Assembly: GCA_026416125.1 (NCBI GenBank)
Contig: JAOAFT010000005.1
Location: 56,594 to 120,593, forward strand
Source: Bacteroidota bacterium
GTDB taxonomy: Bacteria; Bacteroidota; Ignavibacteria; UBA10030
Length of the DNA: 64,000 bases
Direction of reading: 5' to 3'
Shown here: positions 1-5,489 of the stretch, piece after piece
Numbering within the stretch: position 1 is the first letter of the stretch
Layout of the letters: the number at the start of each line of letters is the position of its first letter
Notes under the pieces: generated by a model
Seen by the model: the letters and a program-made list of their open reading frames with translations, nothing else
Database searches by the model: none
Told to the model about the DNA's origin: nothing
Made by a program: the position numbers and the translations under genes

Positions 1-3000
1 ACTCTGTGAGAAATGCGTTGTAGAGTTCATCGGTTGCACCACCGGTTAATCGTTCAAGTTCTTGACTTGTTCGATTCTTTTTTAGTAACCGTGTTTCAAC
101 AATACTTTCTGCAGCTCGAATAAGGTCCGAACGGTGTCGTTCTTGTGACTTTCGTACATGGTAGAGTAAGTTTGCATACTCATTGACTGGGAGTGTGCGC
201 AATCGCTCTGAAACATTGCTTTGAAATGTACGAAGATCTCCACCGCGAAAAATTCCAAGCAACGGGGTAACTGCGTGTTGAATGCTCTTTCGCGTCGCAG
301 GCGGGAGATATCCACGAAATCTCTTCTCACTATCACGCGACTGTATGAAAGCAACTTCCCCTGCAACAGGTGAATAGTACCCCCCCTGTCGTTGCATGGG
401 TTCACCGCATCCAATCTTTATACGAACTTTTTCTGTAATTCCATGATTTGCAAGCCAAACATGAAGATCGTACTTCGCTTTCATGTAAAACGCTGCAGCT
501 GGAGCCTCACCAATTTGTTGGCTTAAGTCGGAACCAGCGATGAATATCTCACACAAGATTTCGGTAAACCGTTCTTGTGGAGTTTGTGTACTCCGTCTGC
601 TTTGCGTTGCATAATCCCATACATGGTCAAGATATTGCCCAATATTTTTTACGGATACTACATCTTCAAACAATGGAATTGACCACACAGATGGTAACTC
701 TGCGTCAGGATGTTCTCGTTGTGTTTGCTCTCTTCGAGCACGGAGTTTCCGTTCTAAACTTATAAGTGCTTCTGGTTTTGTCGACAAACTAATTTGGATT
801 GCTAGCACCATGCCAGCATTCCCATAACTTCCACAGATTGCATTAATTTCATGAATGTTATAGACAGTGGTGTCGACTGCAAACTGATCTCGAGCTGTAA
901 TCATTCCCTGTTGTATACGCGGTGTAATAACTACTCGCTGAAGTATATCCCTATATTGTATGACTTCATTAAGTAGTTCCTCGTCAAATCGGTGTTCAAC
1001 AATGATAGGAATAAGAGCATGGAGTTGTTTCCTGAGCTTTTTATTTAGGACAAAGTAGTATTCGAGCATTCTTTTGCGTTGTGCTCGGAGCTCGAGCATT
1101 TTTCGTTCATATCGATCATTATGTTGCCACAGCACTTTCACCGGATCACGTCGGAGGTGGAGTTTCGTGGCTAGCGTTTTTAATGGTGTCATCGGTACTG
1201 CAAAAGGTAACACCCCACGGTACCGTAATTCAAGCTGATGGGTTAACGATGTAATCTCATCTAAGAGCTCAGTAAACCGCTCGTTCCGTTCAGAGAGATG
1301 CTCTAATTCAAACAGTATATCACTACTTACAGGTGCTTTTGGTTCCACACGTTGAATAGAATAGAGGATGCGGGCCATTTTCCGCACATTTTCCATAACA
1401 ACAGATGCTACAAGTCTGTGTCCTTGTCCTGATGGTCTGTTACTACCGTCCCAGTCACTCCAAAACGAAATGAGTGTGGGAATCTCATCGTTTGAAAATA
1501 GCTTTGCAAAACATTCTCCACGTACGAGCGTTGCATAATCGAGGAGAATTTCATCAGCTTCATCTTTAGACGAAATTGATACGTTGATCCCAATAAATTC
1601 ATCGTAGAAGGACTGTGTTACTCTCTCAAGTAACTCTTGCGGTGGTTTTTGATTCTTTAGGAAAATTGAAATTACTTCATTGAGAAGTAATTCCGTTTTC
1701 AGTGAGTACATTTGAGTTGGGTGAACTGTACGATCGTGTGTTCTAAGCCTAAAGAGTTCCCGTCGGCGTTCGAGAGAGTCCTTCATAAATTCACGATCGA
1801 GTCTTGTTTCTAATGAGCGTCCATTATCTTGCAAAGTTTGGCGTATGAGTTCTTCCTGTAGCAAAGCTCGATCAAGTAATTGGGTTCTGAACTGTTCTAA
1901 CCGTTGTGGAAGGAAAGTACTAAGAAATTCACGATACGCTGTTTCAACGTTGTCCCCAACCAACTTTACAAAGTAATGCCCAAAGGATTTTGACGCTCCA
2001 CGTTCATAGAGATACTGTGAGAATTCTTCCCACAACCGAGATAATTCTCGTTCACGTTGTGCTTTTGAAACAGTTTTCGTAAGAGGCAAACAAATCCTGT
2101 TGTACTGTGCTGACTCATCACTGATAAGTCTATTCAAATGGATAAGGAGTGTCCGTGTTTTATAGAGGAGTGTCTCTGCGCCATCAACACCGCCTAATGT
2201 GAGACGAAATGTTGTTCGACCTGCTTCATATCCGGCTTCAGTACGAGCAAAAGTCGATAGTGGAAGCATTCCAATACCTCGTCGAGCTAAGCTCGAGGCA
2301 AGCCAGTCGAGCGATAAGCCAGAAGGCAACAATTCAATTTTGAGTAGTGGGTACATACTCCCTGTGGGAGGAATAATCGATATTTTATACGGATTCCGTT
2401 CTGCTGGGAGTTGGCGCGAAGCTTCGCACAGTGCTTCAGTCCGTTCACAGAACAATGAATTCCGAAGTCGCCAGTACGCTTCTACAGCCTCTTTACTTCC
2501 ACGGTAAAATAAATAGCAGAGAAAAATGGCACTGTAGTTCGGTGTAATACGCTGAGTTATTTCTACGAACTGTCGACGCGTTGCCTCTTGCGGAATCTCA
2601 ACAACAGCAAGTCTTGCACCAGCAAGACAATCAGTCTTCGACATGGAGTGTACTGTAATAACGGACTGTGCCTGAGCACTTGTACATTCACCGCGTTGGA
2701 CTAACTCGTGAGCAATTTCACGAACTGTTTTTATATGTGGCAATTCGCGTACCGGCGCCACATTTTGGTAGGATAAATCGTCAATGACAGTGATTCCATG
2801 TGTTAAGCAGTACGATACAAGTTTTCGAATTTGATGTTCACTGAAAATCCTCCCAGTTGCATTGTGTGGATTGTTGATAACAAGTGCACCATACAATGGC
2901 CAAGATGGATATTCACGACATAATGCTTCAATCTTTTCAATAATCCCTTCTGCATCGAGTTCATACTCTGACGTGAGTGGCACAGCATGAACAACAGGAA

Positions 3001-4477
3001 AACATTGTTCGTACGACCAACTCAAATCAGGAATAACAACCTCCCGTATCCCACAGTGAAAACCAAGAACTCCAAGGGCAGTACGCGACGATCCACTCAC
3101 AATTGTACAGGCACGTGGATCATACTGTGGTTGATGCTTAAGAAATACCGCCAAGAAACTCCGTTGAAGAGTATTGAGCCACTCATCATTCTCGATATTG
3201 GTAAAGAATTGTTCGAGTAGTGTGTACACATCGAGTGAACCAAACTCATCGAGGTATGAAGTACTCCATTTCTTTGTAAGGTATGTGGTGAATCGCTCAG
3301 TTTTTATTGCTATTTTCCCAATGTATGTGTCAAGAAACTCTGCGTATGAGTCTACAGCTGTTGTAATCGCTCTTTCGATGCTTTTCAGATTTGCTTCGAA
3401 CGATTCACTTACATATGAAGAGTGTGTAAATCCTTCGAAAACTGGTACCACAGAAAGATTGTGTGAGTCGCTGCAAGTTGGGAAGTACCGTTCTCGATAT
3501 TCCAACAATGTTATGAGTAATTCAACTTCTGCAGCAGAGGGTGTCCCCTTTAAGTTAAAGTGTACATTCTCAACAACATTCAAAAAATCAGCATTACCAA
3601 GTAGAAATACAATAGATAGTTTTCGAAGATAGGGTGAAAAAATTCCGGGTGTAAGAAACCGCACAACGCGATGTACAAGTTTCGCTTCTCGAGCAAGCGA
3701 CAAATGATTTGGTACGTCGTTGACCTCAAGGAAAAATAGAGGATATTCAATGCTTTGAGTCCGATAATATCGACGAGTCTTTTCTGTAACACGGTCACCC
3801 AAGACGATAAATGTTGGTTGACTCTTCTGAGATCGGCAGTATTCCTGAACGTACGCTCGTGCTTCGTCCTCGTCCTCTGGAAGGGATTGAAATATCAAGT
3901 TCGGCAATTCTTGCAACAGTGGTGAGATGGTGTACCTATAGAGAAGTATCTGAACTGGTACATCCACCATGTACTCATTGAGTGCAAAGAAAAAAATTCG
4001 AAGCGCTTCATGGATACCTCCCGAAGCAAGAATCATTTCACGTCGTCCGGATTGTTCACCGGTATCATACTCAAGCGGCTCCTGTTGGTTCTTCAGCCAA
4101 TCACAGAGTGCCTTAATTAGCGCATGTGGATTCTTTCGAGCGTACCCTCCACGAGGCATATATGGTGAACTCTTTTGGATGGTTCGCACAAGATACTCGA
4201 GCTTATGCTTTTCTTCTTTTCCCCAACCAAGATAATCTAGAATTTCATTGAGTGATTGTTCGTTTAAATCTTCCCTTTGCACATCGATACCGAGTGCAAT
4301 ACGGAGAAAAGTTGAAGAGAGCCGACTATCTTGTAACGGATTTCCAATGTGAAAATTAATGCGCTCTTCCGGAGCAACGGAGGATGCTGCAGTAATTTCA
4401 CTAATTTCCGACACACGAGCTGATTTAACTGGCTTCAGTCGGAATGCATGATTTGTCTCATTCACGTTCTGTACCAT
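1..4477 (-). CDS. Aminotransferase-phosphoenolpyruvate carboxylase fusion protein (3' end outside window)
   Basis: The reading frame is open from an ATG at 4477 to the left edge, at least 1492 codons, so the C-terminus is missing. Residues about 350-780 form a fold-type I PLP aminotransferase: NNPHNATG near 537, IDDLSYQ near 564, the PLP-lysine motif SMSKTDCLAGAR with Lys614, and the substrate-carboxylate Arg758 in FRLTLGG. Residues 30-330 look like a further, lysine-less aminotransferase-like segment. From about 790 the chain resembles PEP carboxylase: TVHPTQ with His919 (family TAHPTE), SDWDGSN near 1007 (family GGDRDGN), IPLFED, AGSDLSQQIG near 1314 (family GYSDSxKD) and GCGEPMQRQGG near 1356 (family GRGGxxGRGG). 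The last deviates at positions that are normally catalytic. Predicted chemistry is PEP to oxaloacetate, then transamination to aspartate. No clear Shine-Dalgarno is seen. It lies 34 bases after the SPFH gene, probably in one operon. The domain calls are firm; the joint activity is inference. Confidence 0.8.
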   Translation of the reverse strand, partial: MVQNVNETNHAFRLKPVKSARVSEISEITAASSVAPEERINFHIGNPLQDSRLSSTFLRIALGIDVQREDLNEQSLNEILDYLGWGKEEKHKLEYLVRTIQKSSPYMPRGGYARKNPHALIKALCDWLKNQQEPLEYDTGEQSGRREMILASGGIHEALRIFFFALNEYMVDVPVQILLYRYTISPLLQELPNLIFQSLPEDEDEARAYVQEYCRSQKSQPTFIVLGDRVTEKTRRYYRTQSIEYPLFFLEVNDVPNHLSLAREAKLVHRVVRFLTPGIFSPYLRKLSIVFLLGNADFLNVVENVHFNLKGTPSAAEVELLITLLEYRERYFPTCSDSHNLSVVPVFEGFTHSSYVSESFEANLKSIERAITTAVDSYAEFLDTYIGKIAIKTERFTTYLTKKWSTSYLDEFGSLDVYTLLEQFFTNIENDEWLNTLQRSFLAVFLKHQPQYDPRACTIVSGSSRTALGVLGFHCGIREVVIPDLSWSYEQCFPVVHAVPLTSEYELDAEGIIEKIEALCREYPSWPLYGALVINNPHNATGRIFSEHQIRKLVSYCLTHGITVIDDLSYQNVAPVRELPHIKTVREIAHELVQRGECTSAQAQSVITVHSMSKTDCLAGARLAVVEIPQEATRRQFVEITQRITPNYSAIFLCYLFYRGSKEAVEAYWRLRNSLFCERTEALCEASRQLPAERNPYKISIIPPTGSMYPLLKIELLPSGLSLDWLASSLARRGIGMLPLSTFARTEAGYEAGRTTFRLTLGGVDGAETLLYKTRTLLIHLNRLISDESAQYNRICLPLTKTVSKAQRERELSRLWEEFSQYLYERGASKSFGHYFVKLVGDNVETAYREFLSTFLPQRLEQFRTQLLDRALLQEELIRQTLQDNGRSLETRLDREFMKDSLERRRELFRLRTHDRTVHPTQMYSLKTELLLNEVISIFLKNQKPPQELLERVTQSFYDEFIGINVSISSKDEADEILLDYATLVRGECFAKLFSNDEIPTLISFWSDWDGSNRPSGQGHRLVASVVMENVRKMARILYSIQRVEPKAPVSSDILFELEHLSERNERFTELLDEITSLTHQLELRYRGVLPFAVPMTPLKTLATKLHLRRDPVKVLWQHNDRYERKMLELRAQRKRMLEYYFVLNKKLRKQLHALIPIIVEHRFDEELLNEVIQYRDILQRVVITPRIQQGMITARDQFAVDTTVYNIHEINAICGSYGNAGMVLAIQISLSTKPEALISLERKLRARREQTQREHPDAELPSVWSIPLFEDVVSVKNIGQYLDHVWDYATQSRRSTQTPQERFTEILCEIFIAGSDLSQQIGEAPAAAFYMKAKYDLHVWLANHGITEKVRIKIGCGEPMQRQGGYYSPVAGEVAFIQSRDSEKRFRGYLPPATRKSIQHAVTPLLGIFRGGDLRTFQSNVSERLRTLPVNEYANLLYHVRKSQERHRSDLIRAAESIVETRLLKKNRTSQELERLTGGATDELYNAFLTE

Positions 4478-4511: not shown

Positions 4512-5489
4512 TCACTTATTCATTTCTTTTTGCTGGTTTGCCTTTCCTTCAAGTGCCTTTGCAAGAAGTGTTTGGAACATCCCAAGCAATTCGGCACCAC
4601 GAGAAAGTTCCTGGGGAGTCAAGGAGATAACAGTCCGAGCATTCTTTAAACTTTGACTTGCTTCTGCTAATCGTGCTGCTTGCGGTGTAAGCATCAACAA
4701 TTCCGGACTACTCTTAAGAAGTTCAAGCTCTTCGCGTTCAAATGCAAGCCGCATCCGATTTCGCTCTAACTCATCTTGTAATTGCCGTTTCGCAATCTCA
4801 GATTCTTTCTCAAGCTCTTTTGCTTTCAGTTCTGCTTTCTTTAATGCCACAGCATGCTCCATTTCTGCAATTTCTTCGTCAGCTTTCAATTTTGCCTTCG
4901 CTGCAGCTGTTCGAGCTTCATTATTGAGTTTCTCGGTTTTCTCTAAAATTCGCGCTTGTTCTTGTTGACGTAGTGCTTCAGCAATTTGCGAATCCGTGGG
5001 TTCTAGTGATTGTACAACCAAAGAAATAAGCTCTACACCAAATTTCTCTTTCGTAATCCCACTCTTCGAATTTAAATACTCAAGGAGTCCTTGTGAAGAA
5101 AGAGCACTAATTTCTGTTCTCTCTGTGTATTCTTTAATCAATCCTTGGAGCAAAACTTGTACTTCTTCTGCGGCACGCGCAACAGCATCAGTATTCCAAC
5201 CTCCAACACGGATAAGTGCATGTATATATTCTAATGAAGGTGCAACGGATCCAAGTATTTTAACCCGTACTCCTAAATTCCCAGCAGCTGTCGCTTCAAC
5301 AGTCAACTGAATTGGTTGTGTCGTTCGTTTTATTGGTAAACTAAAATGACGTGGATAGAAAGATGCTTTCCGAATACCAATTTTCCCATCAGTTTCATAA
5401 AGTACAATAACTTCTGGTCTTCGTACCCGGTACTCAAAAAGGAATAGTAGTATACCACATACAACTAACACTCCAATAAGTATTTCCAT
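4512..5489 (-). CDS. SPFH-domain (band 7-like) membrane protein
   Basis: This 325-residue protein has one N-terminal membrane segment (about residues 3-19), a beta-rich region with SPFH/prohibitin-like character (about 30-180), and a long charged helical region rich in Ala, Glu and Lys (about 185-265) typical of flotillin or band-7 coiled coils. Proteins of this type form membrane-bound oligomeric scaffolds, and no enzyme motif is visible. The start is supported by a strong AAAGGAGG nine bases upstream of the ATG. It is the first gene before the aminotransferase-PEPC fusion and probably shares its transcript, so a membrane-scaffold role for the fusion enzyme is possible but unproven. Assignment to a specific SPFH subfamily is not possible by eye. 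Confidence 0.7.
   Translation of the reverse strand: MEILIGVLVVCGILLFLFEYRVRRPEVIVLYETDGKIGIRKASFYPRHFSLPIKRTTQPIQLTVEATAAGNLGVRVKILGSVAPSLEYIHALIRVGGWNTDAVARAAEEVQVLLQGLIKEYTERTEISALSSQGLLEYLNSKSGITKEKFGVELISLVVQSLEPTDSQIAEALRQQEQARILEKTEKLNNEARTAAAKAKLKADEEIAEMEHAVALKKAELKAKELEKESEIAKRQLQDELERNRMRLAFEREELELLKSSPELLMLTPQAARLAEASQSLKNARTVISLTPQELSRGAELLGMFQTLLAKALEGKANQQKEMNK

Follow-up and report, generated by a model that had tools for sequence, protein, structure and literature searches.

The locus reported here has its closest described relatives in phosphoenolpyruvate carboxylase (PEPC; Pfam PF00311 and PF14010), in class I/II aminotransferases such as the T. thermophilus aspartate aminotransferase (AspAT) and LysN, and in SPFH/band-7 proteins, which include stomatin, prohibitin, flotillin and HflK/C and whose partners in known cases we take to be NfeD or FtsH. 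Among proteins that join an aminotransferase to an enzyme next to it in a pathway, the nearest precedent in the portions of the sources available is BIO3-BIO1 (dethiobiotin synthetase and diaminopelargonate aminotransferase), for which channelling is claimed in the title of a cited work (PMC9309667). Within a 64,000-nucleotide stretch of a Bacteroidota bacterium genome (the window; contig JAOAFT010000005.1, positions 56,594 to 120,593), we describe a two-gene unit consisting of an aminotransferase fused to a predicted PEPC-fold domain and an SPFH/band-7-like gene directly upstream. Our leading interpretation, held tentatively and at somewhat less than an even chance, is that the fusion converts phosphoenolpyruvate (PEP) and bicarbonate to oxaloacetate and then to aspartate within one molecule. 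It shares with BIO3-BIO1 the logic of the fusion; the aminotransferase class, the partner, the reaction and the hosts all differ. The two halves individually have known relatives, while their combination, the divergence of the PEPC-fold half and the pairing with an SPFH gene did not appear in any source searched: the open-licence literature searched held no PEPC-aminotransferase fusion and no SPFH link to one, and two reviews name no such fusion in their accessible parts (PMC8100219, PMC9309667).

The fusion gene and its SPFH partner

The unit and its parts are as follows (aa, amino acid positions in the fusion protein):

1-4477, minus strand: fusion gene, first 1,492 of 1,872 codons, the remainder lying left of the window (L001:8859-10000)
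4512-5489, minus strand: SPFH/band-7-like protein, 325 aa, the upstream partner, with its stop codon 34 bases before the fusion ATG
2078-4444, minus strand: aminotransferase half, fold type I, aa 12-800 (predicted model; predicted local distance difference test, pLDDT, 87.5; predicted template modelling score, pTM, 0.85)
3476-4057, minus strand: inserted extra alpha/beta unit, approximately aa 141-334 (from secondary structure and residue conservation)
2198-3154, minus strand: PF00155 match, aa 442-760, the domain of the catalytic residues (E 3.9e-14)
2-2131, minus strand: PEPC-fold domain in the predicted structure, aa 783-1492 in the window and on to aa 1872 left of it

A preliminary description of this DNA had reported an open frame of at least 1,492 codons. 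The frame is real and runs on left of the window with no stop (L001:8859-14477, minus strand), giving a full-length protein of 1,872 residues with neither stop nor frameshift between the two halves. Relatives of equal length and domain order recur in other genomes at 43-77% identity, which excludes a chance origin. Among protein relatives, searched with lengths limited to 0.55 to 1.75 times that of the query, the best 120 of 658 all measure 1,859-1,917 residues and all carry PF00155, and among the matches listed the public names read only 'aminotransferase' or pyridoxal phosphate (PLP)-dependent enzyme. An assembly or annotation artefact that joined two neighbouring genes could draw on the assemblies where the gene falls into several frames or fragments (L097, L021, G027, G069 and G071); against this stand those protein lengths and the single unbroken frames of 1,848-1,961 codons in dozens of genomes, so that the artefact, to which we give practically no probability, is already refuted by recurrence.

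The SPFH gene lies upstream of the fusion on the same strand in 63 of the 65 loci that include the fusion N-terminus and 900 bases or more of the preceding sequence, and the gap between the two genes ranges from -12 to 485 bases. The next commonest neighbour cluster occurs in 10 of 76 loci. In the two exceptions, the gene was either split over two frames (L097) or not found (L130:2068-7643, a Bryobacteraceae genome in which the fusion is flanked, besides other frames, by what we take to be a TonB-dependent-receptor-like gene). Across 100 genomes (the window's own and 99 relatives), the fusion is carried by 26, counting matches with E below 1e-50 (a broader tally of 49 takes in ordinary aminotransferases), and the SPFH gene is present in 25, 24 of which carry the fusion. 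The lone genome with an SPFH gene and no fusion (G006) has that gene at the end of a contig that breaks off where a fusion gene would be expected to start, and the two carriers with no SPFH gene (G022 and G069) hold fusion fragments only. The SPFH partner is nearly obligatory. We assign its family to SPFH/band-7 on the basis of PF01145, which is matched by 15 of 25 members under a threshold of E 1, the best of them at 3.1e-9; scanned alone, the copy in the window does not match PF01145, and a profile search of the family (alignment A4, E up to 1) against sequences of solved structures gave no match. An N-terminal hydrophobic stretch is seen in the alignment. In contrast to the known SPFH/band-7 cases, the adjoining partner here is a giant metabolic-type enzyme. 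The preliminary description was silent on both this gene and the inserted alpha/beta unit. A reading as a defence system was rejected, PADLOC giving no match for either the fusion or the SPFH gene.

The two halves of the fusion protein

The N-terminal half is a class I/II aminotransferase by its PF00155 match (53.1 bits against a cut-off of 19.7). Nothing else rose above cut-off in a Pfam scan of the window part of the fusion, and the N-terminal part scanned alone gave PF09995 at E 0.078, below its cut-off. Conservation was read from a set of 45 sequences, the window's and relatives hand-picked from confirmed loci for spread and for length above 1,800. In all 45, K614, R622 and R758 are invariant, and N539, D567 and Y570 are invariant in 37 of 37 sequences (alignment A5), so that the PLP lysine, Asn, Asp, Tyr and two Arg of an aminotransferase active site are all in place; the Lys614 and Arg758 named in the preliminary description do occupy the catalytic lysine and carboxylate-arginine positions. 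The predicted fold and catalytic residues are those of the T. thermophilus AspAT and LysN, to which identity is 13-19% in structural rows; unlike them, this half is interrupted by a long helix and by the inserted unit of ~195 residues, which sits before the active aminotransferase domain. The inserted unit follows the strand and helix order of an aminotransferase large domain with the conserved lysine absent, and may represent a degenerate second aminotransferase domain; when its profile (aa 106-356) was compared with that of the active domain (aa 411-651), the match was marginal, at E 0.017, where the best-scoring of eight control windows gave 0.037.

For the C-terminal half, structure prediction points to a PEPC fold along its entire length, in line with the PEPC domain named in the preliminary description. 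At ~1,090 residues, it is longer than the 883 residues of the E. coli enzyme or the ~530 of an archaeal chain, and in the loci seen it stands, unlike PEPC, fused behind an aminotransferase, nearly always with the SPFH gene ahead. E. coli numbering (ppc) was transferred by motif and barrel-strand order, with the equivalents of E506, D543 and R587 placed by hhalign and motifs. In E. coli PEPC, we take His138 to be catalytic, Glu506 and Asp543 to be the metal ligands, R396, R699 and R713 to be among four PEP-binding arginines, and K546 and R581 to be phosphate/bicarbonate-site residues. The active-site positions in the window, all on the minus strand, are:

2636-2638, minus strand: Lys614, PLP lysine position of the aminotransferase half (invariant, 45/45)
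1721-1723, minus strand: His919, E. coli PEPC His138 equivalent, in TVHPTQ (invariant, 45/45)
917-919, minus strand: Arg1187, proposed Arg396 equivalent on the third barrel strand, from strand order and motif only (invariant, 45/45)
665-667, minus strand: Glu1271, Glu506 equivalent, metal-ligand position, in PLFE (invariant, 45/45)
527-529, minus strand: Asp1317, Asp543 equivalent, metal-ligand position (invariant, 45/45)
518-520, minus strand: Gln1320 at the Lys546 position (Gln in 45/45)
407-409, minus strand: Cys1357 at the Arg581 position (Ser in 37, Cys in 5, Asn in 2 and Ala in 1 of 45)
389-391, minus strand: Arg1363, Arg587 equivalent (invariant, 45/45)

With R1528 and R1563 (the R699 and R713 equivalents, both invariant in 45/45), this makes seven invariant positions among the nine of the PEPC active site that were compared, namely the equivalents of H138, R396, E506, D543, R587, R699 and R713; the His919 in TVHPTQ already pointed out in the preliminary description is one of them. 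Beside the lost Arg581 position, on barrel strand 7, R1352 and K1354 are also invariant. In place of the RNTG that ends PEPC, most rows of the alignment end in GENG or GDNG. On these residues, the metal site seems functional and the anion pocket altered.

A proposed route from PEP to aspartate and its alternatives

In the proposed route, the PEPC-fold barrel would take PEP, bicarbonate and Mg2+ (at Glu1271 and Asp1317) to oxaloacetate, with carboxylation via His919 and Arg1363 and with the invariant Lys1354 or Arg1352 perhaps replacing the charge of the lost Arg581. The oxaloacetate would then be handed from this site to the aminotransferase site and turned into aspartate, glutamate being the likely donor. 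The SPFH protein may oligomerise in the membrane and anchor the enzyme there, which could separate one-way carboxylation from phosphoenolpyruvate carboxykinase (PEPCK) in the 23 of 26 carriers with both genes. Such a separation would make sense, since PEPCK is present in most carriers and one review, in its accessible part, describes PEPC chemistry as a carboxylation that practically never runs backwards (PMC8100219). The consecutive reactions from PEP through oxaloacetate to aspartate, put forward in the preliminary description, are still plausible because seven of the nine PEPC positions are invariant and because searches of the window's genome (98.65% complete) for a stand-alone enzyme, be it PEPC (PF00311 or PF14010), pyruvate carboxylase, ATP-PEPCK or GTP-PEPCK, all gave no match. 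A more ambitious version, in which the domain would be a third, unrecognised branch of the PEPC superfamily within a 1,870-residue bifunctional 'aspartate synthase' bearing a pseudo-aminotransferase domain and assembled on the membrane by a dedicated SPFH protein, the whole forming a two-gene CO2-to-amino-acid metabolon, we consider doubtful.

The co-occurrence figures among the 100 genomes are leads only, because related genomes are not independent. PEPC above cut-off occurs in 2 of 26 carriers against 22 of 74 non-carriers (p 0.03) and pyruvate carboxylase in none of 26 against 3 of 74. ATP-PEPCK shows the opposite tendency, with 23 of 26 carriers against 32 of 74 others (p 6e-5; p 0.002 within family f1 and 0.01 within f6). 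Within genera, the fusion and ATP-PEPCK are gained or lost together: genus g8 has two genomes with both and four with neither, and g15 has one with the fusion and ATP-PEPCK and one with neither; in g13, one genome has both and one (55% complete) has the fusion only. We also noted an ordinary aminotransferase match within ~1 kb of the ATP-PEPCK gene in eight relatives' contigs (G008:C20, G021:C20, G025:C136, G029:C442, G033:C7, G040:C6, G082:C20 and G010:C132), neighbours that pair related reactions as separate genes.

A number of results weigh against the PEP-to-aspartate route. Neither Pfam PEPC model matches the fusion protein; in alignment A1, whose 17 members include the window's protein, a single one reaches PF00311, at E 0.01, and a six-frame search with PF00311 hit the fusion gene in two relatives, both times below the cut-off (E 4.8e-4 and 8.4e-4). 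Foldseek, whose listed matches include the analogue-bound PEPC structure 1jqn, gives low template modelling (TM) scores (0.26-0.37 by query length, with a root-mean-square deviation, rmsd, of 12-23 A), the VIA rmsd to bacterial and plant PEPC is 5.4-6.7 A, and hhalign probabilities against PEPC reach only 8.7 and 25.7%. Global hhalign against PEPC failed (E 0.95), and H919, R1187, R1528, R1563 and the last barrel strand were therefore placed by strand order and motifs, not by scored alignment. Searched as a profile (A1, E up to 10), the PEPC-fold half found no match among sequences of solved structures, so the fold match is one of predicted models. Lys546 is replaced by Gln and Arg581 by Ser, Cys, Asn or Ala in all 45 sequences, and PEP may for that reason not be the substrate. 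On the aminotransferase side, none of the results indicates aspartate specificity: of 41 NCBIfam families, the 25 listed include none whose cut-off is reached, and several specificities are nearly tied in structural comparison. The window's genome has 12 further PF00155 places besides the fusion and one malic enzyme match; with PEPCK in 23 of 26 carriers, other routes to C4 acids exist. The anti-correlation with PEPC is weak and gone within families f1 (p 0.27) and f6 (p 1.0). What stands of the preliminary description is an aminotransferase joined to a PEPC-fold domain, upheld by its sequence, by two structure predictions and by its repeated occurrence in different phyla; the Pfam search it proposed over the whole protein finds PF00155 and not PF00311, and its view of the C-terminal half as simply a PEPC is not supported in that form. 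Since two defining PEPC features that were tested are lacking, we count the protein as a variant of known enzyme kinds, not as PEPC.

The replacement of two anion-site residues makes a changed substrate the main rival. The PEPC-fold domain would then be catalytically active as a lyase or carboxylase, but with a different small acid as substrate. The aminotransferase would use the product of that domain or make its substrate, and together they would build up or degrade some amino acid that is not aspartate. We regard this as rather unlikely, given that the equivalents of three of the four PEP-binding arginines (R396, R699 and R713) are kept along with that of R587, and that invariant Lys1354 and Arg1352 could make up for the lost charge. 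The changed positions would also suit a PEPC-fold half that has become a sensor or structural pseudo-enzyme, regulating or assembling the aminotransferase on an SPFH scaffold, and a parallel is offered by the phosphate-acetyltransferase domain fused to malic enzyme, which the accessible text of a review gives as inactive and important for allosteric control (PMC8100219). Seven positions, both metal ligands among them, are however invariant in 45/45 sequences across several phyla, which is unusual for a dead domain, and we think this explanation quite improbable.

The proposed pair of reactions could also run the other way, with aspartate deaminated to oxaloacetate that the PEPC-fold domain then decarboxylates. 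The enrichment of PEPCK, a gluconeogenic enzyme, in carriers and the same pattern inside genus g8 speak for such an aspartate degrader; the one-way character of the PEPC reaction cited above speaks against it, PEPCK presence may mark lifestyle only, and we rate this the least probable of the functional alternatives, with a slim chance of being right.

Distribution of the family and its significance

By the named genomes among the confirmed loci (80 of 134 loci kept), the fusion family occurs in Chloroflexota (mostly Anaerolineae), Ignavibacteriota/Bacteroidota, Acidobacteriota, Calditrichota and KSB1, the KSB1 copy being cut by its contig end. One copy lies in Stygiobacter electus 09-Me (L112), whose record carries no label as a metagenome-assembled genome (MAG). 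In a 36-row tree, the window's protein falls beside five Chloroflexota proteins (support 100/100), within a clade that also holds members of the window's own family and order, and a sixth Chloroflexota row (L131) groups with KSB1. Because the window's protein is sister to Chloroflexota proteins and not to those of its own family, the fusion gene has probably moved between phyla. Left of the window (L001:3-5470) lies a row of heat-shock genes on one strand, which we take to encode ClpB-like, DnaK-like and three small heat-shock-like proteins, followed by further genes on the other strand, presumably with BirA-like and CoaX-like genes among them.

If the PEP-to-aspartate reading is true, two textbook reactions at the branch point of sugar and amino-acid metabolism would be covalently joined and organised at the membrane in several environmental phyla, and one naturally occurring enzyme would lead from PEP and bicarbonate to aspartate. 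Should the substrate be another, the family would still hold a PEPC-fold domain of deep divergence that almost always comes with an SPFH partner, and the carrying of a metabolic enzyme by an SPFH scaffold would become a directly testable role.

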